From positions 1-44,203 of the forward strand of contig PLDW01000050.1 in the NCBI GenBank assembly GCA_003136315.1: a stretch of DNA of 44,203 nucleotides, written 5' to 3'. How positions within the stretch are numbered: the first letter of the stretch is position 1; each line of letters starts with the position of its first letter. The DNA is from Gemmataceae bacterium. GTDB taxonomy: Bacteria > Planctomycetota > Planctomycetia > Gemmatales > Gemmataceae. The notes beneath the pieces were generated by a model, which saw only the letters and a list, made by a program, of their open reading frames with translations, ran no database searches and was not told the DNA's origin. The translations under genes and the position numbers were made by a program. Below, one piece after another: positions 3,388-26,882 of the stretch.

Positions 3388-3425
3388 ATCTCCCGCTCGG
3401 CCCGGCACCTTCACGACGAGTGGTC

Positions 3426-4448
3426 ATGGAAGACCGCCTCGGCGGGACGAGCGAGTTGGGCCTTTGGCTCTGCCGGACGACGGGCGCAACCAACCCCCGG
3501 AAGGCGCTCGCGGATCGCTGCGCCGAACTGATTGCCGCGCTGGGTGATCGACACCCGCCGACCCGGGTCGGACCGCTTGGACAGTTGTTAGGTCTGGAAC
3601 CGGGACCGCGTGTCCGACCGCAGATCCCGCGCGGGATGCTCGACCTCACATCCGGCCAAACTTACCTCCGCTCGTTCCGACCCATTCGCCCCGAAGGTTC
3701 GCTCGACCTGGAGACGGGGGTCATTTCCGTACAGGATCGAGCCGATCAATTCCGTCCGCTGACCTTTGGTGAACGGGCGCGGATGCGATTCACCTGTGCC
3801 CACGAGATCGGACACGCGCTCTTCTACAACTTCAACACTCGCCCTGCCCGGCGCAGCGCTCCTCTTGGTCCCCGACTGGAAGAAGAACGCTTTTGCGATT
3901 ATGCAGCGCGACATTTCCTCCTGCCAGCGGCCTGGATCGAACCCGAGTTCGCAGCTCATCATCGCCCGAGCCTTGCGCTCTTGCGAGCCTGTGCTGCCCG
4001 TTATATCGTGAGTCTTCGCGTGGCCGCCGCCAGGGCGGCAGAGTGGTTCGCACCTCGGCTGGCTGCCAACGATTTCTACCTCCTCTCGCGAGTGACGACC
4101 AACGCCGCGGGGGGAGGGGTCAAGAAGCCACGTTGTCTGGGTGTCTTTCTGTCAAATCGACTGCGTTCCGAGGGGGTTTCATTCCTCAGAGGGTATCAGG
4201 GATTGGCTGGGGTAAAGCGTGTGGGCGTGCGAGTGCATGACTGGTCGCTGAACGAACTGCACGCCGGCCTGTGTCGGAAGCAACCTGGACTCCAGAGTGG
4301 CCCGCACGTCGAGATCCTCCGCTGCCCGGACGGGAGTATCGTCAACCTCACCTCAACGCATTTCCGTCTCGGATGCACAACGACGGTCTGGACGGAAGGA
4401 CGAATCGAAGTCGTGGCGAACCCCACAAGGTTTCGCCGCGCGGCATAA
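3426..4448 (+). CDS. ImmA/IrrE-type (M78) metallopeptidase
   Basis: This 340-aa protein carries the zinc-peptidase motif HEIGH (residues 126-130, CAHEIGHALFYNF). About 25 residues later comes EERFCDYAARHFLLP, the usual position of the third zinc ligand and the typical 'E..A..FL.P' helix of M78 peptidases. The family includes ImmA and IrrE, which cleave repressors in response to stress or phage/mobile-element cues. Here no XRE repressor is fused or adjacent, so its substrate is unknown. The start is ATG 3426, with GTG 3420 as an alternative, 38 bp after the upstream stop. It is the last gene of the ATPase-HD-peptidase operon and lies ~0.9 kb before brxA. The C-terminal ~150 residues after the peptidase core are not recognised; they may be a sensor or substrate-binding part. 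Confidence 0.85.
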   Translation: MEDRLGGTSELGLWLCRTTGATNPRKALADRCAELIAALGDRHPPTRVGPLGQLLGLEPGPRVRPQIPRGMLDLTSGQTYLRSFRPIRPEGSLDLETGVISVQDRADQFRPLTFGERARMRFTCAHEIGHALFYNFNTRPARRSAPLGPRLEEERFCDYAARHFLLPAAWIEPEFAAHHRPSLALLRACAARYIVSLRVAAARAAEWFAPRLAANDFYLLSRVTTNAAGGGVKKPRCLGVFLSNRLRSEGVSFLRGYQGLAGVKRVGVRVHDWSLNELHAGLCRKQPGLQSGPHVEILRCPDGSIVNLTSTHFRLGCTTTVWTEGRIEVVANPTRFRRAA

Positions 4449-4742: not shown

Positions 4743-5274
4743 CCCTGTGATTGAGGGTGGCGACCGTGTCCCCATCCTTCCCCGGCGAGCTGCTACAACC
4801 AACCCCACGACTCCCTCGTCTGTGGATGATCGGGTCAGTTTTGACGGCGGTGGGGTTCTCGCGCTGGAGAGATGTGTTTACGGTCTGAGGTCCACACCAA
4901 CTGGCGGTGAGGTTGGCTGGAATCCTGGCGGAGCGCGGCGGGGTTGGGATGAGTTCGCCAAGGCCCTTGGCTTGGCGGGAAAGGCGGGGAACCTCACCCG
5001 ACGTGCTCAGTTCGCTTCTGCCGGGCGATCAGTGGGATGGATGGGTTGGAGGTCATCCCCGATGATCGAGGCAGGGCGATGGACTGGCGCGGTCGGGAAG
5101 TGTGCAGTGTCACGATGTCACCCAGCGGGGGCTCAGCCTCAAGAACCTCACCCCGGCGATGACGAGCAGTAACCCGGCAATGTGGGGAACCCCAAACCCC
5201 CTTCACGGCACCCCCACACCCGCCCTTGCGACGATCCACCCCGACTCGTAGTTTGTTGGCGTAATTGTTCAACG

Positions 5275-5308
5275 CCCCACGTTGGGGAGCAACCCGCCAA
5301 ATTGGCGG
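5275..5308. promoter_or_regulatory. Two dyads upstream of brxA (candidate operator)
   Basis: CCCCA-CGT-TGGGG (5275-5287) and CCGCCAA-A-TTGGCGG (5294-5308) are adjacent perfect inverted repeats. The second ends 16 bp before ATG 5325 and 46 bp before the chosen brxA start at 5355. They are suitable as repressor sites for the BREX operon. No BrxR (WYL) regulator gene is found in the window, so the protein that might bind is unknown. Confidence 0.4.
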
Positions 5309-5354
5309 TCCCGGAACCGTGGGCATGGATGCCGCAACGACCGAGGACCGTGAT

Positions 5355-6176
5355 ATGTCCGTCCGCAAGCATTCGGCGACGGAGGTACAGCCCCGACCAA
5401 AAGCCCTCTACTCCTCGAAGATCATCAAGGCTGGGGCACTCCTCGCTGACACGAAGACCCTTTTGGCCCACTGGGATGTGGCCAGTACGGCGGCGGATAA
5501 CGTCCAGCGGTTGCGGCGGGAAAACGTGTTCGGTAAGGCGTCCCGGTCGCGGGTCGAGGACATCCTGAACATTTTCCGTCAGCGATATCTGGCCGATGAG
5601 GCCGTGACGAGGGCGCTCGTCATACTGGTGAACAGGAAACTTCCCGCCGCCTCGCTCGACCGTATCTTGTACTTCCACGCTGCTCGTTCCGACCGGTTGC
5701 TTCACGATGTCGTCGTCGAGGTCTTGATGCCCTTGCAGGCGAGGGGTTTCAAAGACATCGACGTGGTGGACATCCAGACGCCGCTGAAAAAGTGGGTGGA
5801 CGATGGAATGACCACTGCCCCGTGGTCGGAGCCGACCATCGTGCGGATCGCCCAAGGGCTCCTGTCCGCACTGAGGGATTTCGGCGTTTTACAGGGAGCC
5901 GCCAAGAAGCGGATCGCCCCGGCGTACTTGCCAGTCGAGGCGTTCTCTTACTTGATGTTCTTCCTCAAGCAGCACGAACCCTCGGGGGCAAAACTCGTTG
6001 AACTTCCCGACTGGAAGCTGTTCTTCCTGTCACGGGAGGGGGTCGAACGGTTCTTGTTCGAGGCCCACCAGCAGCACCTTCTGGAGTACCATGCGGCGGG
6101 CAGCGTGACCCGGTTGACCTTCCCTGTCGGCACTCTTGAGGAATACGCGAATGTCCTCGCTGAAGGAGCGCATTGA
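5355..6176 (+). CDS. brxA: BREX protein BrxA
   Basis: First gene of the type 1 BREX operon. The 273-aa product matches BrxA (DUF1819) by position, size and character: a mostly helical small protein with …SRSRVEDILNIFRQRYL… near the start and …DWKLFFLSREGVERFLFEAH… towards the end. BrxA is a small DNA-binding-type BREX component whose exact role is unclear. ATG 5355 is chosen because GAGG lies 8-11 bp upstream; ATG 5325 would add ten residues. It overlaps brxB by 26 bp, indicating co-translation. No defects are seen. Confidence 0.85.
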   Translation: MSVRKHSATEVQPRPKALYSSKIIKAGALLADTKTLLAHWDVASTAADNVQRLRRENVFGKASRSRVEDILNIFRQRYLADEAVTRALVILVNRKLPAASLDRILYFHAARSDRLLHDVVVEVLMPLQARGFKDIDVVDIQTPLKKWVDDGMTTAPWSEPTIVRIAQGLLSALRDFGVLQGAAKKRIAPAYLPVEAFSYLMFFLKQHEPSGAKLVELPDWKLFFLSREGVERFLFEAHQQHLLEYHAAGSVTRLTFPVGTLEEYANVLAEGAH

Positions 6177-6732
6177 ACTCCTCGAAAATGACCTGAAGGC
6201 GGTGCCTTCCCGAATCAGCGTGTACCACGACCTTCCGTTCGCAATCCTGCGGTACAACCCGGACGAAGAGTGGGATCTGCGGCGGGAGGTCGAACTGCTG
6301 GCAACCCGGCTGGAGGCCACGGGCAAGGAGGTTCATTCCATCTCGATGTCGGAGTTCCTCTGGAAAGCGATTGAAGAAACCGAGGGGCTCGATGAGGTGG
6401 TCGCGTTAGAGCAGAAACGGGGCTACCTTGAGGCCCAGGACCAGGTGACGACCTACCTTTCCGACCGAGATTGGCGACCTCTGGCCGGGCTGCTTGCCGA
6501 GCGGCTGGGCAAACTCAACCCTGCCAGGAGCATCGCCTTCCTGACCCGGGTCGCGGCAATGGCCCCTGGTATCTACCACATGTCGAAACTCCTCGACCAG
6601 ATGCACGGCAAGACACGGGTGACGACGATCCTGTTCTACCCCGGCTCCATTGAGGGTACGACCGGCCTGCGGTTCATGAACCTTGAGGATCGGGACGCGC
6701 TGGGCAACTACCGGGTCAAGATCTACGGCTGA
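6151..6732 (+). CDS. brxB: BREX protein BrxB
   Basis: This 193-aa protein is of the BrxB (DUF1788) type, with the N-terminal MSSLKERIELLENDL helix, a DLPFAILRY segment and a C-terminal LFYPG-x-E-G segment ending in YRVKIYG, all typical of the family. ATG 6151 has GAGGA 10 bp upstream; an in-frame TTG at 6136 is less likely. It overlaps brxA and precedes brxC by 13 bp. BrxB is an essential, biochemically obscure member of type 1 BREX. The gene looks intact. Confidence 0.88.
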   Translation: MSSLKERIELLENDLKAVPSRISVYHDLPFAILRYNPDEEWDLRREVELLATRLEATGKEVHSISMSEFLWKAIEETEGLDEVVALEQKRGYLEAQDQVTTYLSDRDWRPLAGLLAERLGKLNPARSIAFLTRVAAMAPGIYHMSKLLDQMHGKTRVTTILFYPGSIEGTTGLRFMNLEDRDALGNYRVKIYG

Positions 6733-6745
6733 GGTGAAGCGCCCC

Positions 6746-9700
6746 ATGAAAACCATCGCCGAATTGCTGCAACGCGACCTCAGCCGCAAGATCGAGGAGA
6801 TCATCCAGGTCGATCAGGCGGACGACGAGTCGGTTCTCGCCGAGATCACCGAGTACGTCGCCACTGACAGCATTCGGGAGCAGTACCACCAACTGTTCAA
6901 GGCCATTGCCGAGGCTCCATCCGACCCGCAAGAGAGTATCGGAGTGTGGGTCTCGGGGTTCTTCGGCTCGGGAAAGAGTTCGTTCGCCAAAAACCTTGGC
7001 TACGCCCTCCAGAACCGCACCCTGATGGGGAACCCATTTGCCGACCTTTTCAAGCAACAGATCGGCGACAGTCGCATCGGCGACTTGCTCGACCTCATCA
7101 ACGTGAAGACGCCCACGGAGGTCATCTTCTTCGAGGTCGCCAAGGAACGGGACACCCGGAAGGTGACGGAACGCATCGCGGAATTGATGTATACCGTCCT
7201 GCTCCGGGAACTCGATTACGCCGAGGATTTCGACATTGCTGAGCTGGAGATCGAACTTGAAGCTGAGGGCAAACTCGACCCGTTCGTCGCCGCCTGCAAG
7301 AAACTCCACAAGCTCGACTGGCGGATGGTCCGCAAGGGCGCCCAGAAGCTCTCCCGCGCCAGCGCGGTCCTGCACGATCTTGACCCGACGACGTACCCCG
7401 CCGCGGACTCGTGGGCACACTCGCAACGAAACAGGGACGCCGCGATCACGGTCAGCAAGGTCGTGGAGCGGACCTTCGAGCTTTGGGGGCGGCGGCGTAA
7501 GGGCAAGGCCCTCGTCTTCATCATCGACGAAGTGGGGCAGCACGTCGCCCGCAGCGGCGACAAGATCGAAGACCTTCGGGCCACGGTCGAGGAGTTTGGG
7601 AAGGTCGGTAAGAACCTGCTGAAGAAACGCAAGATCGCCGCCCCCTGCTGGGTCGTTGTCACCTCGCAGGAGAAGCTTGACGAGGTGGTGTCGGCTCTCG
7701 GGGATGACAAGCGGATTGATCTGGCCAAGCTCCAGGACCGATTCCGCCACAAGGTCGATCTCGCCCCGTCCGATATCCGCGAAGTCGCCACCAAGCGGGT
7801 GCTCGCCAAGAGGCCGGAGGCCGTGCCGCTGCTCAGGAAACTGTTCGCCGACAATCTGGGGTCGCTGAACGCCGCCCTCCGACTGGAGCGGACCACCCGC
7901 CGCACCGACATCAGCGAGACCGATTTCGTCCGGTTCTACCCGTACTCGCCGCACTACATCGACCTGTGCATTGGCATCATGTCTGGAATCCGCCTGCAAC
8001 CGGGTGCTCCCCGGCACTACGGCGGCAGCAACCGGACGATCATCAAGCAAGCCTATGAGATGCTCGTCTCGGATCGCACGGCGTTCGCCAAGAAATCGAT
8101 CGGTGCGATGGTCACGCTGGACAAGGTGTATGAGTTGGTCGAGGGGAACCTCTCCAACGAGAAGCGCACCGACCTCGACGAGATCAGCCAACGGTTTAAG
8201 CTCGTCCCGGACGATCAGGGCTGGGCGCTGCGGGTCGCCAAGGTCGTCTGCCTGTTGGAGTTCATCCGGGATCTTCCCCGCACTGAGGCCAACCTCGCCG
8301 CCTTCCTGGTCGATGAGGTGGGCAAGCCCGCTCCGCTGAAGGAAACGCAGGCGGCGGTCAAGCGGCTGGAGGACGCCAAGTTCATTCGCAATACCGAGGA
8401 TGGGTGGAAACTCCAGACGGCGCAGGAGAAGACGTGGACGAACGAAAGGGGCACCCACCTCGAACCGAAGCCCCGAGAGCGGAACGACCTGACCCGGCAG
8501 GCACTCCAACAGATCTTCGACGAGCCCGAGTTCAAGACTTACCGCTACCAGAACTACCGCTCGTTCCGCATCGGCATCAGCGTTGATGGGTCGAGTCTCA
8601 GCGACGAAGGCGATCTCCCGCTGAGCCTCTGTATCGCCGATGACGACGACGATTTCGCCAAGAGGTTGACCGAGGTGCGGGAGGAAAGCCGCCAGAAATC
8701 GCACGAGAACGACCTGTACTGGTTATTCTCCTTCACCCCGGAAATGGACGAGCTTGTTGCCCAACTGCACGCCTCCCGCAAGATGGTCGAGAAGTACGAC
8801 CAGTTGCGTGCCCAAAACAAGATTACGACCGACGAGGCGACGTGCCTTCAGGACGAGAAGACCGCGACTCTCGGCTTCCAATCCCGATTGCGGGACAAGC
8901 TCACCGAGGGCATGGAGAAGGGCACCGGGATGTTCCGGGGCGTCCAGAAGGACGCTGCCGGGTTGGGTAAGGGCCTCGGGGAGATCCTCAAGAAACTCTT
9001 CGCCCACGTTGTCCCATTCCTCTACCCGAAACTGGAGATGGGAGCGCGCTCCCTCAAGGGTGACGAGGCCGAACAGATCCTCAAGGCGGCAGACCTCAAG
9101 GCACTGCCAAACGTGTTCTACGGGTCCGAAACTGGGCTCGGGCTGGTGGTCAAAGACGGGGTGAAAAACGTCATCTGCACAACGGCGGAAGTCGCCAAGG
9201 AGATGATGGACTACCTCAAGAGTGAGCACAGCTACGGCAACAAAGACTCTCGCATGGGCAAAGCGCTGGAGCGGCGATTCTGTGGGACCGGCTACGGCTG
9301 GGAGCAGGATATGGTGCGTCTCATCCTCGCCACCCTCTTTCGCGCGGGCGAGGTCGAAGTCACCTACCAAGGCAACCGTTTCGCGAACTACCAAGACCCG
9401 GTGTCGCGGACGCCGTTCACCAAGACCCCGGCCTTTCGCTCCTCCCTGTTTTCGCCCCGTCAATCGGTCGGGCTCAAGATGCTGACACAAGCGGTTCAGC
9501 AACTTGAAGCCCTGACCGGCGAGGAGGTCGATGTCGAGGAGGGGGCGATTGCGACGGCCTTCAAGAAAGTCGCCGCCGAGGAGCTGGAGAAGCTCCACCC
9601 CCTAAAGGCCCTCGCCGAAGCCAACCGCCTGCCGGTCGTCTCGGTGCTGACAGAGTACCAGCAGACGCTCGTGGGTATCCAAGGCTCGGCCTCCGACGAC

Positions 9701-10417
9701 TGCGTGCGCATCCTAACCGAGACCGGGGCCATCTTCGGCGAAACCCGCGAGAAAGTGCGGAAGCTCCGAGAGGGCCTGAACGACAAGGCCCTTGGCCTGG
9801 TGCGGCTAGCCCGCACGGCGACAGAGCAGGTCTGGCAGCGGCTCGCTGCACACGGGCCGTCTCCGGAGGTTGGACAGTGTGTGGAGGATTTGAAGGGGCT
9901 GCTCGGTTCGGAGCAATTCGTTGACTCGCTTGATGCCATCGCCGCCAAGACGAAAACTGTGCGAGGAGCCTACCAGCAGGCGTACCTGACGCTCTTCGAT
10001 TGCCGGGCCGAGTTGTATCGGAAGGCCATTGACGAGATCAGAAACCGGCCCGAGTGGGCTCCGCTGGCACAGACCAACTCCGTTCTCGCCGAGTCCCTGT
10101 TGTCGCCACTCGTCGGGCGAGTTGGTGCCAACGAGGACCGTGTCGCCGTTGCCAACGGCACAGGGTTGGGCAAGGCCAGCCTGACCGAGATGGAATCCGA
10201 TCTGGCGGCGGTGGACGGGTTGCGCTCCTCGGCCCTCTTCAAGCTGCAAGAGTTGTCGATGGGCGGCGACAAGAAGCTCTTGGTGCGGCGGGTGCGGGTG
10301 GCCGAGATCTTTAACCGCCCAATCCAGACGCAGAAGGACTTGGATGACGCCCTCGGCCAGCTTCGGGACGCGCTCCAGAAGTACCTCGACGAAGGCGCTG
10401 CGATCATTCTGGAGTGA
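6746..10417 (+). CDS. brxC: BREX ATPase BrxC (PglY-like)
   Basis: Large P-loop ATPase, 1223 aa, the usual size of BrxC. The N-terminus MKTIAELLQRDLSRKIEEII is characteristic. Walker A is GFFGSGKS at residues 71-78, and a Walker-B-like ALVFIIDEVGQH lies near residue 255. The remainder is helical with coiled-coil-like stretches (for example 'ARKMVEKYDQLRAQNK' near 675). BrxC/PglY is an AAA-family protein that acts with the PglX methyltransferase and PglZ in BREX exclusion of phage DNA. ATG 6746 follows the brxB stop by 13 bp with GAGGTGAAG upstream. It ends 3 bp before pglX. No frameshift is seen. Confidence 0.95.
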   Translation: MKTIAELLQRDLSRKIEEIIQVDQADDESVLAEITEYVATDSIREQYHQLFKAIAEAPSDPQESIGVWVSGFFGSGKSSFAKNLGYALQNRTLMGNPFADLFKQQIGDSRIGDLLDLINVKTPTEVIFFEVAKERDTRKVTERIAELMYTVLLRELDYAEDFDIAELEIELEAEGKLDPFVAACKKLHKLDWRMVRKGAQKLSRASAVLHDLDPTTYPAADSWAHSQRNRDAAITVSKVVERTFELWGRRRKGKALVFIIDEVGQHVARSGDKIEDLRATVEEFGKVGKNLLKKRKIAAPCWVVVTSQEKLDEVVSALGDDKRIDLAKLQDRFRHKVDLAPSDIREVATKRVLAKRPEAVPLLRKLFADNLGSLNAALRLERTTRRTDISETDFVRFYPYSPHYIDLCIGIMSGIRLQPGAPRHYGGSNRTIIKQAYEMLVSDRTAFAKKSIGAMVTLDKVYELVEGNLSNEKRTDLDEISQRFKLVPDDQGWALRVAKVVCLLEFIRDLPRTEANLAAFLVDEVGKPAPLKETQAAVKRLEDAKFIRNTEDGWKLQTAQEKTWTNERGTHLEPKPRERNDLTRQALQQIFDEPEFKTYRYQNYRSFRIGISVDGSSLSDEGDLPLSLCIADDDDDFAKRLTEVREESRQKSHENDLYWLFSFTPEMDELVAQLHASRKMVEKYDQLRAQNKITTDEATCLQDEKTATLGFQSRLRDKLTEGMEKGTGMFRGVQKDAAGLGKGLGEILKKLFAHVVPFLYPKLEMGARSLKGDEAEQILKAADLKALPNVFYGSETGLGLVVKDGVKNVICTTAEVAKEMMDYLKSEHSYGNKDSRMGKALERRFCGTGYGWEQDMVRLILATLFRAGEVEVTYQGNRFANYQDPVSRTPFTKTPAFRSSLFSPRQSVGLKMLTQAVQQLEALTGEEVDVEEGAIATAFKKVAAEELEKLHPLKALAEANRLPVVSVLTEYQQTLVGIQGSASDDCVRILTETGAIFGETREKVRKLREGLNDKALGLVRLARTATEQVWQRLAAHGPSPEVGQCVEDLKGLLGSEQFVDSLDAIAAKTKTVRGAYQQAYLTLFDCRAELYRKAIDEIRNRPEWAPLAQTNSVLAESLLSPLVGRVGANEDRVAVANGTGLGKASLTEMESDLAAVDGLRSSALFKLQELSMGGDKKLLVRRVRVAEIFNRPIQTQKDLDDALGQLRDALQKYLDEGAAIILE

Positions 10418-10420
10418 ATC

Positions 10421-12460
10421 ATGGACCAGGCGATCCGCAACAAGCTCCGGGGTGTGGTGACGCAGTGCCGCAGGCTGCTTGAAGACTCGGTGCGTGACGA
10501 ACTTCAGGGGAAGTTCGGTGTCTATGCTGCCCTGAAAGATGATGTGCAGGTGGACGACGACGCCCGCATGATGCACCTGGGCGACGAGGAGCGGGCCGCT
10601 CGGAAAGACATCCTCGACCACTTCGCTCACATCAAAGCCCGTGGGTTCAAGCCGAGGGAATCCCTTGACCAACTCGTTCGGGAAGTCGCCTTCACGCACC
10701 TGAACCGGTTCTGCGCCTACAAGATGATGGAGGCCCGGCAGGTCTACATCGGCGACCAGCGGTTCCGCGAGGCCGTCAGTCGGGCCGTGAACTCCAATGG
10801 CGTGAAGTTCTACCTTGCCGACCACCCCGACGACGAACGACTCTTCACCACCGGCCAACAAGACGTGGCCTACCGGCATTTCCTCGACTGGCTGGGCGGG
10901 CTGCTCTCGGAAGAGATCGGCGTCCTGTTCAGTCCCCATGATCCTGCCAATCGGCTCTACCCGCCTCAGCGGGTGCTCGACGAGGTGTTGGACCTCATCA
11001 ACGACGAGGCGCTGGCCGACATCTGGACACAGGATGAGACCATTGGCTGGGTGTACCAATATTTCACACCCAAGGAACTGCGGGATCAGGCCCGGAAGGA
11101 GAGCCAAGCACCCCGTAACTCCTACGAACTGGCCTTCCGCAACCAGTTCTTCACCCCCCGCTACGTCGTCGAGTTTCTGACCGACAACACGCTCGGCCGC
11201 ATCTGGTATGAGATGCGGAAGGGCGATACGAAACTCAAGGATCAGTGCCGGTACATGGTGCGCCGTCCGAGTGAGGTCTTTCTCGCCGAAGGGCAGAAGC
11301 CTGCCGAAGATGCCGCCAAGGATCGGGACGACCTGCCGCAAGACGAACTTCTCAAGTTGCCGGTACACATCCCGCACCGCCCGAAGAAAGACCCTCGGGA
11401 ACTGAAGATCCTCGATCCCGCATGTGGCAGCGGGCACTTCTTGCTGTACTGCTTCGACTTGCTGCTATTGATCTACGAAGAAGCCTACGGCGATCCCGAC
11501 CTCGGTCCTGCGCTCCAGCGGGACTATCCGACGCTGGACGCCCTCCGGCGGGACGTGCCCCGATTGATTCTCGCCCATAACCTGCACGGCATCGACATCG
11601 ACCTGCGGGCCAGCCAGATCGCAGCGCTTGCCTTGTGGCTCCGGTGCCAGCGGGCCTATCAGGACATGGGCTTGAAGAAGGACCGGCCCAAAATCACCCG
11701 CTCGAACTTCGTGTGCGCTGAGCCAATGCCCGGTGAGGCGCACATGCTCAAGGAGTTCGTGAAGCAGATCGAGCCGAGGCTCCTTGGGCAACTGGTCGAG
11801 GTCGTCTTCGACAAGATGAAGTTGGCGGGAGAAGCCGGTTCGCTCCTCAAGATCGAGGAGGAGATCCGGGACGCTATAACTGAAGCGAGGAAACAGTGGT
11901 TGGCCGGTCCAGTCTCGATCCAGCCGAGCCTTTTCGACAACGATCAGCCGATAGTAAGGCAGAAACGGTTCGACTTCTCGGGAATCACCGACGCCCAGTT
12001 CTTCGAGCAGGCCGAAGCCAAGGTGGTCGATGCGCTCGGTAACTATGCGGAGAATGCCCAAACTGGTCAGCGACTACAGCGACGGCTTTTCAGTGAAGAC
12101 GCCGAGCGAGGCTTCGCCTTCGTTGACCTCTGCCATAAGCGTTTTGATGTGGTGCTGATGAATCCGCCGTTTGGTGAGTCCAGCAAGCCCGCCAAGGGGA
12201 TCATCGAGAAGCACTACCCCCGGACCAAAAACGACCTCTACGCCGCATTCGTTGAGCGGGGCCTGGATCGGCTGGATCGTGGAGGGATGCTCGGTGCGAT
12301 CACGTCCCGGACTGGCTTTTTCCTCACCTCGTTCCAGAAATGGCGGGAAGAAGTGGTGTTGGGAGAGGCCGTCCCGACTGTTTTCGCGGATTTGGGCCAG
12401 GGAGTTCTCGACACTGCAATGGTCGAGACGGCGGCCTACTGCCTTCGGAAGTGCTGGTAG
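10421..12460 (+). CDS. pglX: BREX methyltransferase PglX, N-terminal part (split)
   Basis: The 679-aa product is the catalytic half of the BREX adenine-specific DNA methyltransferase. The SAM-binding motif DPACGSG is at 332-338 and the catalytic NPPFG at 581-585. The upstream helical region (…EEIGVLFSPHDPANRLYP…) is typical of PglX. An intact PglX is about 1200 aa. Here the frame stops at TAG 12458-12460 just after TAAYCLRK, and the missing target-recognition half resumes in the same frame at 12830 after a ~0.37-kb insert. PglX marks host DNA so that BREX tolerates it. Whether the two halves assemble into an active enzyme cannot be told from sequence. Confidence 0.9.
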   Translation: MDQAIRNKLRGVVTQCRRLLEDSVRDELQGKFGVYAALKDDVQVDDDARMMHLGDEERAARKDILDHFAHIKARGFKPRESLDQLVREVAFTHLNRFCAYKMMEARQVYIGDQRFREAVSRAVNSNGVKFYLADHPDDERLFTTGQQDVAYRHFLDWLGGLLSEEIGVLFSPHDPANRLYPPQRVLDEVLDLINDEALADIWTQDETIGWVYQYFTPKELRDQARKESQAPRNSYELAFRNQFFTPRYVVEFLTDNTLGRIWYEMRKGDTKLKDQCRYMVRRPSEVFLAEGQKPAEDAAKDRDDLPQDELLKLPVHIPHRPKKDPRELKILDPACGSGHFLLYCFDLLLLIYEEAYGDPDLGPALQRDYPTLDALRRDVPRLILAHNLHGIDIDLRASQIAALALWLRCQRAYQDMGLKKDRPKITRSNFVCAEPMPGEAHMLKEFVKQIEPRLLGQLVEVVFDKMKLAGEAGSLLKIEEEIRDAITEARKQWLAGPVSIQPSLFDNDQPIVRQKRFDFSGITDAQFFEQAEAKVVDALGNYAENAQTGQRLQRRLFSEDAERGFAFVDLCHKRFDVVLMNPPFGESSKPAKGIIEKHYPRTKNDLYAAFVERGLDRLDRGGMLGAITSRTGFFLTSFQKWREEVVLGEAVPTVFADLGQGVLDTAMVETAAYCLRKCW

Positions 12461-12581
12461 GCAAATAACTTGGGGGCGATTATGGCCAGGCCGAAGCCAC
12501 GACCACCCACGCCCCCCTTAATGCTCTTCACCACCAGTAGTTTAACACGGGAACAGGACGAATCAAGAGGTAATATCGGCG

Positions 12582-12833
12582 ATGCGCGTGATTGTCCAAC
12601 TCGATTGCCTCGTACAGCGGCTGAACTGGATGGTCTGCACGACAATGGACGTGCTGATCTACCAGTTTGCCAGCCATCCGAAGCGGACACTACGGGAACT
12701 CCACGAGTGGAACATTGGGAGCTTCCGGCTCTGGAAAGAGACTCTCAACAGCGAGAAACCTGTCGTGCTGCTCTCGGACATTCTCAAGCCGGTGTGCCAC
12801 GGCCTGCCGACAAACGCGGGGGGGCCGGCATGA
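12582..12833 (+). CDS. Unknown 83-aa ORF inside the pglX insert
   Basis: This small ORF begins at ATG 12582 with AAGAGG about 11-16 bp upstream. It stops at TGA 12831-12833, overlapping the ATG (12830) of the PglX C-terminal half as ATGA. The composition is protein-like (…LHEWNIGSFRLWKETLN…, …PVVLLSDILKP…) but I recognise no family. It occupies most of the insert that interrupts pglX, and its stop/start overlap suggests it helps translate the downstream half. It could be a captured gene fragment rather than a functional protein. Confidence 0.5.
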   Translation: MRVIVQLDCLVQRLNWMVCTTMDVLIYQFASHPKRTLRELHEWNIGSFRLWKETLNSEKPVVLLSDILKPVCHGLPTNAGGPA

Positions 12834-14740
12834 CGACCTTCTTTCGCCTGCTGCAATCGGAAGACCGGGTGACCGATTTACGGGCGGCCGTCGAATCGCA
12901 CAACACTGGCCAAGCATCTGCGATGCTGAGCGAGGTCGATCCCGCCGAGTTTGAGCAGGTGCCTGGCTCACCGTTTGCGTATTGGGTAAGCGAACGAGTC
13001 AGGAAGTTATTCTCCACATTGCCAACATTTAGTGGCAATGGCAGACACGCCTGCCTAACCAATCAGGCAAGCGATGACAAACGCTATTTCCGTTGTTGGT
13101 GGGAGGTCGGGAGCCGAGAAATTGGCAGACAGCAGCGATGGGTGCCACTTTCCAAGGGTGGAGCGTTCTGTAGATACCATGCCGATATCCATCTCCTGAT
13201 TGATTGGGACGACAAAAATCGCACCTTTCGTGGATTTGAGGGGACGCTTCATCGCCCAATGAAAAAACCTGCCTCTGTCGATCACTTCTTCCGGCGCGGG
13301 ATAACCTATTCGTCTCGTACACAGATCGGATTCAGTGCCAGAATTCTGCCTGCCGAGTGCATTTTTCACGCAAAAGGGCCGGGGGTTTTCCCCAATCCAG
13401 GAGAGGAGTACGCGGTTCTCGCCGTGATGAATTCGCGAATTTATCAAGCACTGCTTGATATCCAGATTTCTTTTGGTTCTTATGAAATCGGTGTAATTAA
13501 TCGCACGCCGCTGCCCATCAAATTCGGAAAGCATCATGAACCTCTATCGGAAGCGGCTCGCAACTGCGTTGCAAGCAAGCGATACCTCGAAGCACTGGAT
13601 GAGACGACTCACCTATTCGCTGTCCCCGCATGTGTGCGCATGCTGTCGAAGACGATTCTGGAGTGCGTCTTGCACCATAATGAACTTATCGATCGCGAGT
13701 TAACCACACTCGCATTATACCAAGATAAAATTGAAGCGATCGTATTATTATTATATAAAATTAATATAGATATCGATTTTGTCACAGAATCGAGTATGCG
13801 CATTAAAGAGACAAATGATAAATATGATGACAGTGATGAATTGCAAGAGCAGCATAATTTTGTTGACACATATAGCGAAACAATTGAAATATATTCCTAT
13901 TCTATTGGATGTGTATTTGGTCGCTGGGATATCGCTTACGCGATGCACGACAAAGTAGCGCCGGATTTGTGCGATCCATTTGAACCGCTTCCTGTTTGCT
14001 CGCCAGGAATGCTAACCGGGGTGGACGGACTGCCTGCGACTGATGCCCCGTCTGGCTACCCGTTGCGGGTGCAGTGGGACGGCGTGACAGTCGATGATCC
14101 CGACCACCCAAGCGACATCGTGCGGCGGGTCCGTGAAGTGTTGGAACTGATCTGGCAAAACCGAGCGGACGCGATCGAGAAGGAAGCGTGCGAGATCCTG
14201 GGTGTTGAGGAACTGCGGGACTACTTTCGCAAGCCGGGTAAAAGCGGATTCTGGGAGGACCACGTGTCCCGCTACTCCAAAAGCCGCCGCAAGGCCCCGA
14301 TCTACTGGATACTCCAGTCGTCGAAGAAGAACTATGCCATCTGGCTGTACTACCACCGCCTCGACAAAGACCTGCTTTTCAAGGCACTGGTGAATTACGT
14401 CGAGCCAAAAATTAGGCTGGAGGACAGCCGCCTCGAATCTCTCCGCACACAAAAAACGGCCGCTGGCGATTCGGGGCGTGAAGCCAAGCGGCTCGGCAAA
14501 GAGGTTGAGCGACAGGAGGAGTTCCTCTCCGAACTGCGAGATTTCGAGGACAAGTTGCGCCGGGCGGCAAACCTGCACCTCGAACCGGATCTCAACGATG
14601 GAGTCGTCCTGAACATCGCCCCGCTCCACGAACTCGTCCCGTGGAAGGAGGCCAAGAGCTACTGGCAGGAACTGCTCGAAGGCAAGTATGAATGGTCGTC
14701 CATCGGCAAGCAACTGCGGGAGAAGGGGCTGGTAAAATGA
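12830..14740 (+). CDS. pglX: BREX PglX, C-terminal target-recognition part (split)
   Basis: This 636-aa product continues PglX. It opens with MTTFFRLLQSED, followed by VPGSPFAYWVSERVRKLF, RYFRCWWEV and LPAECIFHAKGP…VLAVMNSR, all standard for the PglX region after the methyltransferase motifs. A charged coiled-coil-like segment lies near the end (about residues 530-590). It is in the same frame as the N-terminal half and stays open throughout. The stretch 13,000-13,950 is much richer in A+T than the flanks (13,730-13,800 is almost all A/T codons), fitting a horizontally exchanged specificity domain. The stop overlaps ATG 14737 by ATGA. Translation probably re-initiates at 12830 by coupling to the 83-aa ORF. 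Confidence 0.88.
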   Translation: MTTFFRLLQSEDRVTDLRAAVESHNTGQASAMLSEVDPAEFEQVPGSPFAYWVSERVRKLFSTLPTFSGNGRHACLTNQASDDKRYFRCWWEVGSREIGRQQRWVPLSKGGAFCRYHADIHLLIDWDDKNRTFRGFEGTLHRPMKKPASVDHFFRRGITYSSRTQIGFSARILPAECIFHAKGPGVFPNPGEEYAVLAVMNSRIYQALLDIQISFGSYEIGVINRTPLPIKFGKHHEPLSEAARNCVASKRYLEALDETTHLFAVPACVRMLSKTILECVLHHNELIDRELTTLALYQDKIEAIVLLLYKINIDIDFVTESSMRIKETNDKYDDSDELQEQHNFVDTYSETIEIYSYSIGCVFGRWDIAYAMHDKVAPDLCDPFEPLPVCSPGMLTGVDGLPATDAPSGYPLRVQWDGVTVDDPDHPSDIVRRVREVLELIWQNRADAIEKEACEILGVEELRDYFRKPGKSGFWEDHVSRYSKSRRKAPIYWILQSSKKNYAIWLYYHRLDKDLLFKALVNYVEPKIRLEDSRLESLRTQKTAAGDSGREAKRLGKEVERQEEFLSELRDFEDKLRRAANLHLEPDLNDGVVLNIAPLHELVPWKEAKSYWQELLEGKYEWSSIGKQLREKGLVK

Positions 14741-14760
14741 CCCTGGAGGGAGAACCCAAT

Positions 14761-14991
14761 ATGGCGACCGTGACGATTCAAGAAGCGCAGGCTACCCTTG
14801 CAGACCTCATCCACCGGCTGACGCCGGGCGATGAGGTGGTGATTACCGAGAACGATCAACCCGTGGCTCGGTTGGTGCCGACGCCGGCCACGCCCCCGAG
14901 GAAGGTGCCGCAATTCGGGACGTTGAAAGGAACCGTCCTGTCGATGGAACACTTCGACGATCCGCTGGAGGAATTCGAGGAGTACATGTGA
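14761..14991 (+). CDS. Phd/YefM-type antitoxin
   Basis: This 76-aa protein starts MATVTIQEAQATLADLIHRL and continues GDEVVITENDQPVARLVP, the classic Phd/prevent-host-death antitoxin N-terminal fold that binds its own operator. The acidic tail (DDPLEEFEEYM) would wrap the toxin. ATG 14761 is preceded by GGAGGGAGA with ideal spacing; ATG 14737, overlapping the pglX stop, is a longer alternative. The stop overlaps the toxin ATG at 14988. The pair is wedged between pglX and pglZ on the same strand. Confidence 0.88.
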   Translation: MATVTIQEAQATLADLIHRLTPGDEVVITENDQPVARLVPTPATPPRKVPQFGTLKGTVLSMEHFDDPLEEFEEYM

Positions 14992-15380
14992 TGAGGTTGC
15001 TCCTCGATTCGCACACGTTGATCTGGGCAGTCGATCAATTAGCCCAGATTCCCGTAGCGGCCATGACCGCAATGGCGAACATCGCAAACGAACGACTCGT
15101 TAGCATGGCAAGCATTTGGGAAATAGCGATCAAGTACGGGAGAGGACGGCTTCCTCTGTCGTTGCCTTACCGCCAGTGGATGGACAAGGCCATCAGCGAC
15201 CTCGACTTACTTGTGCTGCCGATCTCACTGGAGCACGCTGGGCAGGTAACCGGGTTGCCGTGGCACCACAGAGACCCCTTCGACCGGCTGCTGGCGGCGC
15301 AGTCGCTCGTCGAAGGCGTGCCGCTCGTCAGCGCCGATGCGATCTTCGATCAGTACGGAGTCAATCGAATCTGGAAGTGA
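14988..15380 (+). CDS. PIN-domain toxin (VapC-like RNase)
   Basis: This 130-aa PIN-domain protein is a predicted magnesium-dependent RNase whose activity is blocked by the preceding antitoxin. The acidic residues expected of PIN domains are present: D7 (LLLDSHTLIW), E45 (ASIWEIAIK), D96/D99 (HRDPFDRLL) and D117 (SAD). The subfamily with Phd-like partners fits the antitoxin next door. It ends 10 bp before pglZ, so the module is transcribed within the BREX operon. Residues appear intact, hence it is probably active. The likely effect is stabilisation of the operon or abortive response if BREX expression fails; that is inference. Confidence 0.9.
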   Translation: MMRLLLDSHTLIWAVDQLAQIPVAAMTAMANIANERLVSMASIWEIAIKYGRGRLPLSLPYRQWMDKAISDLDLLVLPISLEHAGQVTGLPWHHRDPFDRLLAAQSLVEGVPLVSADAIFDQYGVNRIWK

Positions 15381-15390
15381 GCGTCTGTCG

Positions 15391-17976
15391 ATGGCCGTCG
15401 TCACCGAATACCTGTTCCAGTTGATTACCAAGCAGGTCGAGGACCGTGGCCTCGTCGTTTGGTACGACCCGGAGAGAGCCTTCGTATCGGTGGCGGCAGA
15501 ACTGGTCATCCCGAAGACGACCGTGGCCTGCTACGACGGCAGTTTCTTCCGCCTCCGCCACGCGATTGACCACCTGATGAACGGCGACCTTCCGCCCCGT
15601 CTGGTCGTGTACGTGCCCGAGGAGCAGCGCAGCACTCACAATGCTCTCGTTGAGTTGGAAGCCGCCGGGGTCGTGATCCAGCCCGGCCAGCAGCCCCCGA
15701 ACCGCAATACCCGGCTGGCCGTCGTCGCCCGCAATGCCCTGAAGCCACTCCTCGGCGACGATCAAGTACTTGAGATCGAGAAGCAGGTCGAGAGCGGCAA
15801 ACTCACACTGGACGACCTGAATACCCTCGCTGACAAGGGGCGGGACTTCGGTGTACTCTCCCTGATCTTCGGCTCGGCCAACCCGCAGGAAGTCGCTTTG
15901 GCCTTCCTGCATGGCAACGACCACGACGGCGAGATCGAAACGAAGTCGGTCCAGCACGACCTGCGGAATCTGCTCCAGCCGAGTTTCGATATCGAGGAGT
16001 TTCCGGCCTCGGCCACACTCAGCACACTCCGGGAGCGATTGGCCCGCCATGTCCTGCTCACCGACCTGATCGCCGGACTTGGCCAATCCGTGCCGCCCTC
16101 ATTGTCCTCGATCAAGCTGGCGACCTCGCCGGGTGGGGTGGATGCGTGTGTGCGGCTGGCCCACTCGTGGCGGAACAGCCGGGACGACCGGGACAGCTAT
16201 GTGGCGGCGGCGAACACCGTCGAACAGGAGTTCTCGCTCGGCCAACTGGCCTTCGACCCCAAGAACCTTGTGGGGATCGAGACCTTCCACGCGGTCGAAC
16301 GGGCACTGCTGCGTCATGTCGAGAACGAACTGCTGGACAAGGCCCGCCCCGATCTGCTGCAACTGGCCGTATCTCGCCTGTCCCGCTTCTGGGGCGAGGC
16401 CGAGCCCACCGTGCAAGCCCGCTGGGCGCTCATCGCTGCCGCGGCCGAGGTGCTACTCGAAGCTGACCGGGTGGCGAAGGAGGTCAAGAAGCCGCCGACC
16501 ACCGTATCCGATCTCGTGAAAGCTTACGCCGAGGACGACCAGCCGTGGTGCCTGCTCGACACCCACCACCGGCACATGGAGAGCCGCAAGTTTAACTTTG
16601 AGTTCGACGCCGCCGCGGAGCATCACGGGCTGGAGAAACTCATCACCAAGGCCGGACAGCGGTATACCGAGGTCGTCTCGGCGCTGGCGAAACACTTCGT
16701 TACCCAGTTCTCGAAAGCCAAACACCCGATCAAGGGGCTGTTACGCCAACGGGACTTCTTCGAGACGCAGGTGAAGCCCAAGTTGGACGCGGGCAAGGTC
16801 GCCTACGTCTGGGTGGATGCCCTGCGGTTCGAGATGGCCCGCGAACTGTGCCGGCTGCTCAAGGATGACTTCGACCTCACCCTCCAGCCCGCCATCGGCA
16901 CAATGCCGACCATCACCGAGATCGGCATGGCGGCTCTCTTGCCCAAGGCGCATGAATCGGCGAAGGTGGTCTCCGTCGGTAGCGGCAAGCTTGGGCTGGA
17001 GGTCGGCGGCAAGATCATCAAGGATCGCAAGGATCGGGTGGCTTTCCTCAAGGAGCACGCCGGGGTGCCGGTGTTCGATTGCAAGCTCGACGACCTGCTA
17101 CCCAAGCCGAAGCCGAAGGTGAAGGAGGGCATCCAGAACGCCAGGCTGGTCCTCGTGACCTCGCAGGAGATCGACGAGTTCGGCGAGAGTGACACGAAGC
17201 TGGCCCGGTTGCAGATGGACAGCATGTTGAATTATTTGAAGCGGGGCGTCCGCATTCTCAGCGACCACGGGGTCAAAACCATCATTCTCGTCGCCGACCA
17301 CGGGCACCTGTTTGCTGACGAGATCGGCGACGACATGAAGATCGACGCCCCCGGCGGCAAGACAGCGGACCTGCACCGGCGAGTTTGGGTGGGGGAAGGT
17401 GGCGCGACTGACAAGTCGTTCCTGCGCTGCCCCCTCTCGTCGCTGGGGATCGACAGCGACTTCGACATCGCGACCCCGTGGAACACCGCTATCTTCAAGG
17501 TCGCAGGTGGCAACCTCGCGTATTTCCACGGGGGCTTGTCGCCGCAAGAGTTGATCGTGCCCGTGGTTGTCCTGACCTCGATTGCCAAGTCGGGCGGGAC
17601 GACCACCGGGATCGCCTGGACTCTCACCCCCGGAACGGCGAAACTGACGACACGTTTCTTTTCCGTGCAGGTCGCCGGAGTACAAAGCGAGTCGAGTCTC
17701 TTCGGGTTCGACCCGCCGAAAGTCCGCATCGAAATTCGCGCGAACAAGAAGGTTGTCTCGGTGCCCGTCAGCGCTTCCTACGGCTTCGAGGATGCCACGG
17801 GCGAGATGAAGCTGAAGGTCGCCGAGCAGGACGTCAAGCGGATCGAACCGAACACGATGACCCTGATGATCGGTGAGGACATCACACAAAAAACAGTGGG
17901 GGTGTTTCTCGTCGACGCCACCACGGGCGCAGAACTGACGGCCCCGCTCACCGTCGATGTCGCCATCTCGATGTGA
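15391..17976 (+). CDS. pglZ: BREX PglZ, alkaline-phosphatase-superfamily protein
   Basis: This 861-aa protein contains the PglZ domain. Its metal-binding signatures are VDALRFEMA (D476) and LVADHGHLFADE (D636, H637, H639), as in the alkaline-phosphatase superfamily. The N-terminal half is helical (…DRGLVVWYDPERAF…) and typical of BREX type 1 PglZ. PglZ is a core component of all BREX types and is thought to act with the PglX methyltransferase. ATG 15391 lies 10 bp after the PIN toxin stop; its ribosome site is weak, so translational coupling is likely. The size is normal and there is no frameshift. Confidence 0.95.
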   Translation: MAVVTEYLFQLITKQVEDRGLVVWYDPERAFVSVAAELVIPKTTVACYDGSFFRLRHAIDHLMNGDLPPRLVVYVPEEQRSTHNALVELEAAGVVIQPGQQPPNRNTRLAVVARNALKPLLGDDQVLEIEKQVESGKLTLDDLNTLADKGRDFGVLSLIFGSANPQEVALAFLHGNDHDGEIETKSVQHDLRNLLQPSFDIEEFPASATLSTLRERLARHVLLTDLIAGLGQSVPPSLSSIKLATSPGGVDACVRLAHSWRNSRDDRDSYVAAANTVEQEFSLGQLAFDPKNLVGIETFHAVERALLRHVENELLDKARPDLLQLAVSRLSRFWGEAEPTVQARWALIAAAAEVLLEADRVAKEVKKPPTTVSDLVKAYAEDDQPWCLLDTHHRHMESRKFNFEFDAAAEHHGLEKLITKAGQRYTEVVSALAKHFVTQFSKAKHPIKGLLRQRDFFETQVKPKLDAGKVAYVWVDALRFEMARELCRLLKDDFDLTLQPAIGTMPTITEIGMAALLPKAHESAKVVSVGSGKLGLEVGGKIIKDRKDRVAFLKEHAGVPVFDCKLDDLLPKPKPKVKEGIQNARLVLVTSQEIDEFGESDTKLARLQMDSMLNYLKRGVRILSDHGVKTIILVADHGHLFADEIGDDMKIDAPGGKTADLHRRVWVGEGGATDKSFLRCPLSSLGIDSDFDIATPWNTAIFKVAGGNLAYFHGGLSPQELIVPVVVLTSIAKSGGTTTGIAWTLTPGTAKLTTRFFSVQVAGVQSESSLFGFDPPKVRIEIRANKKVVSVPVSASYGFEDATGEMKLKVAEQDVKRIEPNTMTLMIGEDITQKTVGVFLVDATTGAELTAPLTVDVAISM

Positions 17977-17985
17977 GGGTGAACG

Positions 17986-20019
17986 ATGCCCGGCTTGGAC
18001 AAGAAAGCGGCTGCGGTGTTCGCGGGCAAGGTGGTCCGCAAGGATCTCGTTCGCAAGGTGAAGGTCGGGGCGAATGTGCCCGTTTTCGTCCTCGAATACC
18101 TGTTAGGCAAGTATTGCGCGACCGACGACCTGGCGGCCATTGACGCTGGGCTCAAGGTGGTGAACACAACCCTTTCGTCGAACTTTGTGCGGCCTGACGA
18201 GGCGAACAAGGCGCAGTCGATGGTCAAGGCCAAGGACGGAGGAAAGCACACCTTCATCGACAAGGTGCAGGTCCGATACATCTCCGAAGATGACAAACAC
18301 TGGGCGGAACTAAAGAACTTCGGCCACAAGAATGTCCATGTCCCCGAGCATTACCTCCGGGAATTCGACCGGCTTCTCATGGGCGGGATCTGGGCACAGG
18401 TGGAGATTCGCCACCAGTACGACGAGGAGGCGAAAGGGAAGCGGAGCCCGTTCTGGATCGAGAGCCTGAAGCCGATCCAACTGGCGACGTTCGACCTGGA
18501 CGAGTATCGGGAGGCCCGTCGTCAGTTCACGACCGACGAGTGGATTGACCTGCTCCTCCGCACGATCGGGATGGAGCCCTCCCACTTCAACCGGCGGGTC
18601 AAACTGCTCTTCCTCGTGCGGCTGATCCCGCTGTGTGAGCAGAACTACAACTTGGTCGAGCTTGGTCCCCGGGGGACTGGGAAGAGCTACGGCTATCAGG
18701 AACTCTCCCCCTACACCATCCTGCTAACCGGCCCAACAACCGTCGCCAACCTCTTCTACAACATGGCGAGCGGGAAAATGGGGCTGGTCGGGATCTGGGA
18801 CGCGATCGGGTTTGACGAGGTGGCCGACCTCCAGAAGATGCCGAAGGAGGTCGTGACCACGCTCAAAACGTACTGCGAATCGGGGACGTTCGCACGCGGC
18901 AAGGACTCGCTCTCGGGGATGGCATCCATCGCGATGTTCGGGAACACCAACCAACCGGTTGAGGTGATGGTCCGCTCAAGCCACCTTTTCATGCCGATGC
19001 CAGAGGTGATCCGGGAGGACATGGCTTTCCTCGACCGCATCCATTTCTACATCCCCGGCTGGGAAGTCCCGAAGATGCGAGTTGAGTTTTTCACCGATCA
19101 CTACGGGTTCGTGGTGGACTACCTCGCCGAGGCCCTCCGGGAACTGAGGAAGCACAACTTTACCGAAACCCTCGACCGCCACTTCACCCTCGGATCGCAT
19201 CTCAACGCCCGAGACGTGAAGGCGGTGCGGAAGACGGTGTCCGGGCTGGTGAAGCTCCTCTACCCGGACGGGACAATGACCCGTGCCGAGCTACTGGAGG
19301 TGGCCGAACTGGCGGTCGAGGGTCGCCGTCGGGTGAAAGAGCAACTCAAGAAGATGGGTTCATTCGAGTACCACCAGACCAGCTTCTCGTTGATCGACAA
19401 CGAGACCCGAGAGGAGACGTTCGTCGGGGTGCCCGAGCAAGGCGGGCGGGACACGATTTCGACCGACCCACTGGCCCCGGGGTCGGTGTACACCGCATCG
19501 GTGGACGACCAGGGGAAGGTCGGCCTGTACCGGGTGGAAGTAGGCTGCTCCCCGGGCACTGGCAAGCTGAAGATCGCTGGCGGGGTCGAAGGGCCAATGA
19601 AGGAGTCGATACTTCGGGCTTTCGCCTATCTGATGGGTCAGAAGGTCAAGATCGGGATGGGCCAGCAGGTGGACGCCACCGACTTTCACATCGAGGCCAT
19701 CGACCTACTGAGCAACCATGTGCCATGCGAGGCCGGGATTGCCCTGGTGGTTGCCGTGTACTCGGCAGTGAAGCGACAGTCGGTGCAAGCAGGGCTTGTC
19801 ATCCTCGGCGACCTCTCAATTCAGGGCAACATTAAGGCAGTGCGTTCGCTAGCCGAGCCGTTGCAGGTGGCGATGGACAACGGGGCACGCCGGGCCTTGA
19901 TCCCACTGGAGAATAAGCGGAACTTCCTGGATGTCTCGGGGGACATCGTCGAACGAGTCGACCCGATATTCTTCTCCGATCCGATGACAGCGGCTATGAA
20001 GGCCCTGGGGATGACATAA
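17986..20019 (+). CDS. brxL: BREX Lon-like AAA protein BrxL
   Basis: This 677-aa BrxL closes the operon. Walker A is GPRGTGKS at 227-234 (LGPRGTGKSYGYQELSP). The C-terminal ~150 residues resemble the Lon protease domain (…DFHIEAIDLLS…LVILGDLSIQGNIKAV…). In my by-eye alignment the Lon catalytic serine position (GPSAG in Lon) is E582 (PCEAG) and the lysine position is A623, so proteolysis looks unlikely. BrxL is known as a ring-forming DNA-associated ATPase in BREX. ATG 17986 follows pglZ by 9 bp with a GAGGGTGA site. The downstream region changes strand. Confidence 0.93.
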   Translation: MPGLDKKAAAVFAGKVVRKDLVRKVKVGANVPVFVLEYLLGKYCATDDLAAIDAGLKVVNTTLSSNFVRPDEANKAQSMVKAKDGGKHTFIDKVQVRYISEDDKHWAELKNFGHKNVHVPEHYLREFDRLLMGGIWAQVEIRHQYDEEAKGKRSPFWIESLKPIQLATFDLDEYREARRQFTTDEWIDLLLRTIGMEPSHFNRRVKLLFLVRLIPLCEQNYNLVELGPRGTGKSYGYQELSPYTILLTGPTTVANLFYNMASGKMGLVGIWDAIGFDEVADLQKMPKEVVTTLKTYCESGTFARGKDSLSGMASIAMFGNTNQPVEVMVRSSHLFMPMPEVIREDMAFLDRIHFYIPGWEVPKMRVEFFTDHYGFVVDYLAEALRELRKHNFTETLDRHFTLGSHLNARDVKAVRKTVSGLVKLLYPDGTMTRAELLEVAELAVEGRRRVKEQLKKMGSFEYHQTSFSLIDNETREETFVGVPEQGGRDTISTDPLAPGSVYTASVDDQGKVGLYRVEVGCSPGTGKLKIAGGVEGPMKESILRAFAYLMGQKVKIGMGQQVDATDFHIEAIDLLSNHVPCEAGIALVVAVYSAVKRQSVQAGLVILGDLSIQGNIKAVRSLAEPLQVAMDNGARRALIPLENKRNFLDVSGDIVERVDPIFFSDPMTAAMKALGMT

Positions 20020-26827: not shown

Positions 26828-26882
26828 CCGAATGGGTACGATCATTATCCCGGCCAACGGCCGGCTTACGAGGATACAGGCC

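Follow-up and report, generated by a model that had tools for sequence, protein, structure and literature searches.

The closest described relatives of the gene pair analyzed here are the one-piece PglX/BrxX proteins of type 1 bacteriophage exclusion (BREX) systems, represented by structures from Salmonella (8c45) and E. coli (9ewz and 8zek). In a 44,203-nucleotide stretch of DNA from a Gemmataceae bacterium (contig PLDW01000050.1 of assembly GCA_003136315.1, here called the window), we found the same domains in the same order, covered by two genes together: one for the N-half, which we call pglX-M (M), and one for the C-half, which we call pglX-S (S). One-piece PglX/BrxX is the first structural match of the models of both M and S, but the window differs from it in having two genes, an unrelated relic between them, and a cut that lies before the hinge of the protein. 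The occurrence of the same two-gene layout with the same cut in many bacteria suggests a genuine two-part enzyme and not simple damage.

Separate polypeptides for methylation and recognition, an arrangement that could allow exchange of specificity, are also known from HsdM and HsdS of type I restriction-modification systems and from two-subunit type IIB enzymes such as BsaXI. The type I M protein 2okc and BsaXI are among the weaker matches of M, and the profile of intact relatives also matches 2okc. In contrast to type I restriction-modification, the sequence, the operon, and the best structural matches of M and S are those of BREX PglX, and no HsdS is among the listed matches of S. The open reading frames (ORFs) flanking M and S belong by their matches to BREX families; there is also a separate N6_Mtase ORF, at 43250-44179. 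A pglX in two parts has also been noted in Regnicoccus frigidus (PMC9716671), where the portions of the paper covered here treat it as an interruption and do not discuss the position of the cut or start signals. The literature searched, parts of it in excerpt, holds no description of a recurrent two-gene PglX; an earlier mention could lie in Goldfarb 2015 or in supplements.

The pglX genes of the window and the position of the cut

PADLOC matched the six core genes brxA, brxB, brxC, pglX, pglZ, and brxL as one operon, with pglX as two ORFs, and by its sequence the operon is assigned to type 1 BREX with the order brxA-brxB-brxC-M-S-pglZ-brxL. Systems of this type are characterized by methylation of adenine at N6 within a 6-bp asymmetric site and by restriction of phages. 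The predicted M protein has 679 amino acids (aa) and the C terminus ...ETAAYCLRKCW*, and its TAG codon (12458-12460) is the sole stop in the pglX frame from 10421 to 14740. The ATG at 12830 that opens S (12830-14740) lies 2409 nucleotides (nt) downstream of 10421 and in frame with it, and the TGA of an 83-aa ORF (12582-12833) overlaps this ATG in the sequence ATGA (12830-12833). The initial annotation, made from the sequence alone, had described this stop, the resumption in the same frame, the otherwise open frame, and the overlapping small ORF, and the ORF coordinates and the sequence bear it out on all of these. Its view that the amber codon breaks the gene fared less well, since the TAG is better read as the end of the M gene, a gene end shared with the class of split genes described below.

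The PADLOC PglX profile PDLC02527 (1332 positions) aligns to the N-half over positions 3-658 and to the C-half over 665-1263, with only about 6 profile positions missing at the break. Motifs, profile, and structures place the full PglX/BrxX domain set and the methyltransferase motifs across M and S, and alignment to intact PglX proteins, which the initial annotation had proposed, showed that the two together cover the protein. With a stop and a separate start, the window lacks a single polypeptide that joins the methyltransferase to the target-recognition domain, and each half stays below the 500-bit cut-off of NCBIfam NF033452 (423.6 and 337.9 bits). The reading frames of the other core BREX genes are open. 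In the source genome, an 11.59-Mb draft of 524 contigs that may be incomplete, M and S have one match each (for S, at E ≤ 1e-5).

To locate the cut, we aligned a profile of 10 intact relatives to Salmonella PglX (8c45) and counted residue numbers from this alignment. On 8c45, M ends near residue 611 and S begins near residue 617, within the loop that joins the strands TTAWVIKN and PVFFRL. In the portions of the published accounts covered here, the hinge of Salmonella PglX is placed at 654-659 (PMC11341690) and the hinge loops of E. coli BrxX at 638-675 (PMC11842806). The cut lies about 40 residues ahead of the hinge, so that S carries the last methyltransferase stretch, the hinge, the target-recognition domain, the spacer, and the C-terminal region. 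AlphaFold2 models were obtained for M (predicted local distance difference test, 83.0; predicted template-modeling score, 0.86) and for S (83.4 and 0.81, respectively), and in Foldseek searches PglX/BrxX proteins were the top six matches for both. In the models, M ends in a strand (669-677) and S begins with a strand (3-5), with the cut in the turn between them, from which we infer that M and S pair by strand complementation.

Recurrence of the two-gene layout

When bacterial genomes were scanned with a portion of the N-half, 45 loci were obtained, 43 of them classifiable after two partial ones (L049 and L051) were dropped. We scored a gene as split when its N-half stops no more than 15 residues beyond the counterpart of window residue 675; L030, whose frame ends 100 residues beyond the junction, was counted as intact. 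On this definition, pglX is split at the shared loop in 22 of the 43 relatives and runs on in 21, counts that are not an unbiased prevalence, since the search patterns were taken from the window's own sequence. The initial annotation had proposed such a junction search and had considered a split PglX unusual; the junction was found, and the same cut in about half of the classifiable relatives does not fit that description.

The split N-halves terminate in a VLDTAMVETAAYCL-like stretch plus 2 to 8 residues, and the split C-halves begin like MTTFFRLL. The window fits the class at both ends, with M stopping 2 to 8 residues past the ETAAYxL strand and S having an MTT-F-RLL-like beginning. All 22 split genomes contain a match to the C-half; in three of them (L013, L022, and L031) it is on another contig, so that its partnership with that M is presumed. 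The names of the split rows span eight phyla, many of the labels coming from metagenome bins, and include the isolates Devosia soli, Microvirga splendida, Variovorax sp. YR216, and Desulfacinum infernum. The layout is also carried by the complete Thioflavicoccus mobilis plasmid pTHIMO01, as M, two genes, S, two small genes, PglZ, and BrxL. Among four loci on viral contigs, two (L068 and L069) are split and two (L066 and L067) continue past the junction. Searches with M at E ≤ 1e-40 gave matches in 8 genomes of the window's phylum, of 392 searched, and in 10 of the 301 searched from the phylum around L027. PADLOC holds half-length PglX models, one ending at the split (PDLC02526, 640 positions, matched to 637) and one beginning at the S start (PDLC02532), so the halves were probably picked up by clustering but not named as such. 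By these sequence comparisons, a recurrent two-gene PglX (M plus S) in BREX is well supported as a class.

We then considered the start signals of S in 25 loci in which one piece carries both M and S; 23 gave an S start, and the two loci without one (L125 and L126) were excluded. S overlaps the end of M in 15 of the 23, by 4 nt (NTGA) in nine, by 1 nt in four, and by 8 and 10 nt in two, and something lies between M and S in eight. An overlap of 4 nt with the stop of the upstream ORF occurs at 13 of the 23 S starts (nine times with M, four times with another ORF), a class feature that the window shares in its ATGA. A Shine-Dalgarno-like motif, defined as AGGA, GGAG, or GAGG at -16 to -4, precedes 19/23 S starts compared with 961/7998 (12%) of the other ATG and GTG codons in the same loci; it is usual but not universal in the class, the four S starts without it being those of the window, L035, L050, and L068. 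Where the genes overlap directly, the motif lies mostly within the last M codons, often Leu-Glu. With the window excluded, it is present at the M 3' end of 18/22 split genes (11/13 in which S overlaps M and 7/9 of the others) versus 1/23 intact genes (Fisher P = 7e-8, relatedness ignored). Judged by these signals, S is a real gene in the class, and most S starts carry a start signal of their own.

A tree of M was built from 46 N-halves, 23 split and 23 intact, after L001, L002, L003, L005, and L006 were dropped as self or duplicate rows; the intact rows, used also in the count of M-end motifs, are the 21 from the scan, L004, and the second PglX of L040. The split label needs 9 changes on this tree, at least 7 of them forced by well-supported branches, which indicates that the split, or its reversal by fusion, arose several times at one place. 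On the S tree, whose alignment excluded L012, L068, and L069, 5 changes of the label suffice, of which at least 4 are forced; the M tree requires more. The window S stands there among mostly intact rows with support of 32/22, a value at which its placement adds little. The end branch of the window in the M tree is short, 0.11 versus a median of 0.23, and includes time before the split.

Several loci showed other irregularities in pglX. In L033 (7230-11685) and L124, the split PglX is followed by a second S-like ORF whose GTG overlaps the stop of the first S (GTGA); the two S-like ORFs share 71% identity across residues 57-699 of the first one, and the second loses its frame within about 120 codons, the similarity continuing in another frame. 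In L040 (5167-12847), split M and S are directly followed by a second, one-piece PglX. A Gemmatales PglX (L016:5133-9042) has an apparent frameshift at about residues 121-145 of the N-terminal domain and is unsplit at the M/S junction. A Hymenobacter sp. BRD67 plasmid, with its BREX genes in many short ORFs that probably reflect sequencing frameshifts, was not counted.

The M-S interval and cargo slots

A 95-residue frame within 12546-12830 aligns to residues 526-607 of a 609-residue homologue (L118:455-2284, minus strand) from a genome of the same family, with a score of 143 compared with 50 for the best of 500 shuffles. By this alignment, the insert represents the 3' terminus of a gene of that kind that has lost about 525 codons. 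The small ORF, which the initial annotation had taken for the insert's own, is by this homology part of the last 95 codons of a gene of about 609 codons; as a conserved gene in its own right it was rejected for that reason, and its matches were limited to its own genome and 1 other of 149 searched. HEPN RNases have the catalytic motif R-x(4-6)-H. The homologue contains RARNTIVHD, which resembles it, and the relic reads NQEVIS at the RNTIVH-like position and lacks the motif. HEPN is here a label given by eye, since Pfam has no family for the relic or the homologue; PADLOC has none for the homologue. When the longer homologue was used as the query, only its own genome matched among the 392 genomes of the phylum (E ≤ 1e-6), and no viral contig or plasmid matched; the 83 aa gave a single 26-residue match (E = 0.3) against plasmids. 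An LmuA-like (Lamassu) ORF, L053:27-395 on the minus strand, adjoins the homologue of the relic gene.

The length of the small ORF means little by itself, since a start-led open run of at least 83 codons occurred in 423 of 2000 dinucleotide shuffles of the insert. Its codon use (+0.586 bits/codon) is just under the 5% point of 83-codon windows of the operon genes (0.611), compared with -0.550 bits/codon for the pglX frame across this stretch, and the homology score and codon use together argue that the small ORF is more than chance. Composition lends no support to the earlier description of the insert as foreign-looking, with a guanine-plus-cytosine (GC) content of 0.577 compared with about 0.56-0.60 in neighboring 300-base windows. 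Insertion of a mobile element was also rejected: the DNA has one copy in the genome, inspection by eye revealed no target duplication, and Pfam has no family for the 83-aa ORF. A promoter and terminator scan gave 3 promoter-like sites versus 2.2 (standard deviation, 1.4) in shuffles and 3 terminator-like sites versus 4.8 (standard deviation, 1.8), with no plus-strand site inside the interval.

Whole genes lie between M and S in other split loci: a small gene and a PIN-domain protein in L014, a HicA-like (below the Pfam cut-off) and HicB pair in L025, a 1222-residue WD40 protein in L023, an ATP-binding protein and DUF2290 in pTHIMO01, and unknown genes in L027 and L036; the slot of L029 holds about 3 kb without a convincing ORF. 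In four of the eight occupied slots with an S start (the window, L023, L025, and L036), the stop of the upstream ORF overlaps the S start by 4 nt. The plasmid pTHIMO01 repeats the layout of the window, with M, cargo, S, a UPF0175-DUF3368 pair (DUF3368 presumably being PIN-like), PglZ, and BrxL. Cargo also sits between brxC and M, which makes the M/S slot one of several. Between brxC and M, similar-looking genes of 270-281 residues were seen at L023:4297-5130, L027:3932-4744, L031:4109-4936, and L050:4280-5125, those of L050 and L027 resembling RiboL-PSP-HEPN just under the Pfam cut-off; the same position holds Schlafen-AlbA at L038:3690-5174 (L043:3696-5195 looks alike), RelA/SpoT at L039:4094-5182, and a UvrD helicase at L069:2466-5189. 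A 2026 survey of BREX describes auxiliary effectors (HEPN, PIN, and similar) embedded in BREX operons (PMC12839542); in the main text, as covered here, it does not mention a slot between two pglX genes, and the words "split" and "fission" occur zero times.

Table 1. Features of the BREX operon and of the M-S interval in the window
Feature	Positions	Strand	Remarks
BrxA	5265..6176	+	PADLOC match
BrxB	6136..6732	+	PADLOC match
BrxC	6683..10417	+	PADLOC match
pglX-M (N-half)	10421..12460	+	N-terminal helical domain and N6-adenine methyltransferase domain; DPACGSG and NPPF motifs
M-S interval	12461..12829		369 nt; single copy in draft genome
3' remnant of ~609-codon HEPN-like gene	12546..12833	+	95 sense codons; by homology
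Candidate Shine-Dalgarno GAGG of remnant ORF	12567..12570	+	11 nt before ATG 12582; by eye
83-aa ORF within remnant	12582..12833	+	TGA overlaps S start
pglX-S (C-half)	12830..14740	+	Target-recognition domain, helical spacer, C-terminal region; begins MTTFFRLLQSEDR
Phd/YefM-family antitoxin, S/PglZ slot	14761..14991	+	Start picked by eye inside ORF 14692-14991
PIN-domain protein, probable toxin, S/PglZ slot	14988..15380	+	
PglZ	15337..17976	+	PADLOC match
BrxL	17986..20019	+	PADLOC match

Elsewhere in the window, an ImmA/IrrE-type peptidase (capP-like) is encoded at 3330-4448, upstream of brxA. A phage-like element (23849-44179) beside the operon has an NrS-1-type polymerase domain, C5 and N6 DNA methyltransferases, a phage-family integrase (26832-28403) that overlaps tRNA-Ser (28070-28154), and a terminase (39010-40584).

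Readings of the window's pair

Function of the window's own pair is, from its sequence, likelier than not, and on balance we think it probable that the split PglX of the window works, with translation of S dependent on coupling to the relic ORF. PglX would then consist of a methyltransferase subunit, M, and a second subunit, S, with the target-recognition, spacer, and C-terminal regions, and the two would associate by completing the methyltransferase sheet. Like one-piece PglX, the pair would recognize the BREX site, methylate the cell's own DNA, and, together with the other Brx proteins, license restriction. A HEPN-like gene would once have occupied the 369-nt interval as a cargo slot and been reduced to its last 95 codons, and S, having no recognizable ribosome-binding site, would probably be translated by termination-reinitiation at the ATGA from the relic ORF. 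The GAGG before the relic ORF and the ATGA ending on S make such reinitiation plausible; the coupling proposed in the initial annotation thus stands as plausible, though the small ORF it invoked is not a gene in its own right. For the window organism, we infer M-S association, enzymatic function, and coupling alike. At columns invariant in 13 intact relatives, M of the window departs at 1/191 and S at 1/72, compared with 1 to 35 and 1 to 12 departures, respectively, among the intact proteins themselves, in agreement with the earlier statement that the C-half shows no decay. A region of S (13600-14049) has a low GC content (0.37-0.41 versus about 0.6), in line with exchange of the recognition domain.

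Several observations weigh against a functional, coupled pair. The S start has GGGGGGG where AGGA, GGAG, or GAGG would be expected at -16 to -4, and the last M codons of the window hold no Shine-Dalgarno-like motif. The GAGG-ATG spacing of 11 nt before the relic ORF is longish, and such motifs precede 12% of background codons. In the class as a whole, the M-end motif of the seven non-overlapping loci may not serve S, so a constraint on protein sequence may share in that signal. The window is the sole split row in a starred set of 12 in the M tree (11 intact); derivation from an intact gene is therefore the simplest account of its split, which could be recent. Decayed cargo in the slot may signal decay of the operon.

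These points bear on the main rival, which we regard as unlikely yet credible, namely, that an intact pglX was recently broken by an inserted gene piece, with too little time for decay, leaving BREX dead or without modification. The isolation of the window among intact M relatives and the lack of a Shine-Dalgarno motif before S count in its favor, as do the fragmentary state of the inserted gene and the pglX interruptions noted in the part of PMC9716671 covered here. However, the window shares the loop of its break with 22 other split loci, S has the MTT-F-RLL beginning of the class and a 4-nt NTGA overlap with the upstream ORF, neither M nor S shows a sign of decay, and the other core genes are open. 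Of the initial proposal of a two-subunit PglX in place of random damage, the two-subunit part is supported by the recurrent cut, the C-half in every split genome, and the start signals, and inactivation in the window keeps some probability, since its nearest M relatives are intact.

Could M work with an S encoded elsewhere, the local S being a silent cassette? Some split genomes do have further S matches, mostly in long ORFs resembling a second one-piece PglX, but the single S match in the window's possibly incomplete draft genome makes this quite improbable. An error of sequencing, assembly, or binning that produced the TAG or the insert is slightly less probable still: the fragmented draft and the one split row among intact relatives would fit it, but the insert is single copy with a homologue in another genome of the family, and isolates and a complete plasmid show splits of this kind. 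We give least credence to readthrough or recoding of the amber codon, which would join M and S via a 123-residue linker. The interval is stop-free in the pglX frame, as in only 36 of 2000 dinucleotide shuffles, but the codon use of that frame across the interval is unlike that of the operon genes (-0.42 to -0.55 bits/codon), the remnant frame being close to them, and readthrough was rejected on this ground; moreover, an M-S overlap of 1 or 4 nt, present in 13 of the 23 split loci, puts the two genes in different frames, where readthrough could not join them.

More tentatively, and with some doubt, the functional two-gene reading can be extended to a two-subunit BREX branch that has been made or unmade several times, with M decoupled from an exchangeable S in the manner of type I restriction systems. 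In this branch the M/S junction would also be a landing slot for other defense genes, and in the window the tail of one such gene would have been kept as a translated leader driving S by termination-reinitiation. A natural two-gene PglX, if true, would mean that specificity is swappable by exchanging S, and would provide separate M and S with which to ask which half contacts BrxB, BrxC, and PglZ. The C-terminal domain of Salmonella PglX could not be expressed alone, according to the portion of that study covered here (PMC11341690), a problem that natural S proteins might solve. A two-gene form would also explain operons annotated without a named PglX, and in the annotation of pTHIMO01 the halves are named "DNA methyltransferase" and "hypothetical protein."

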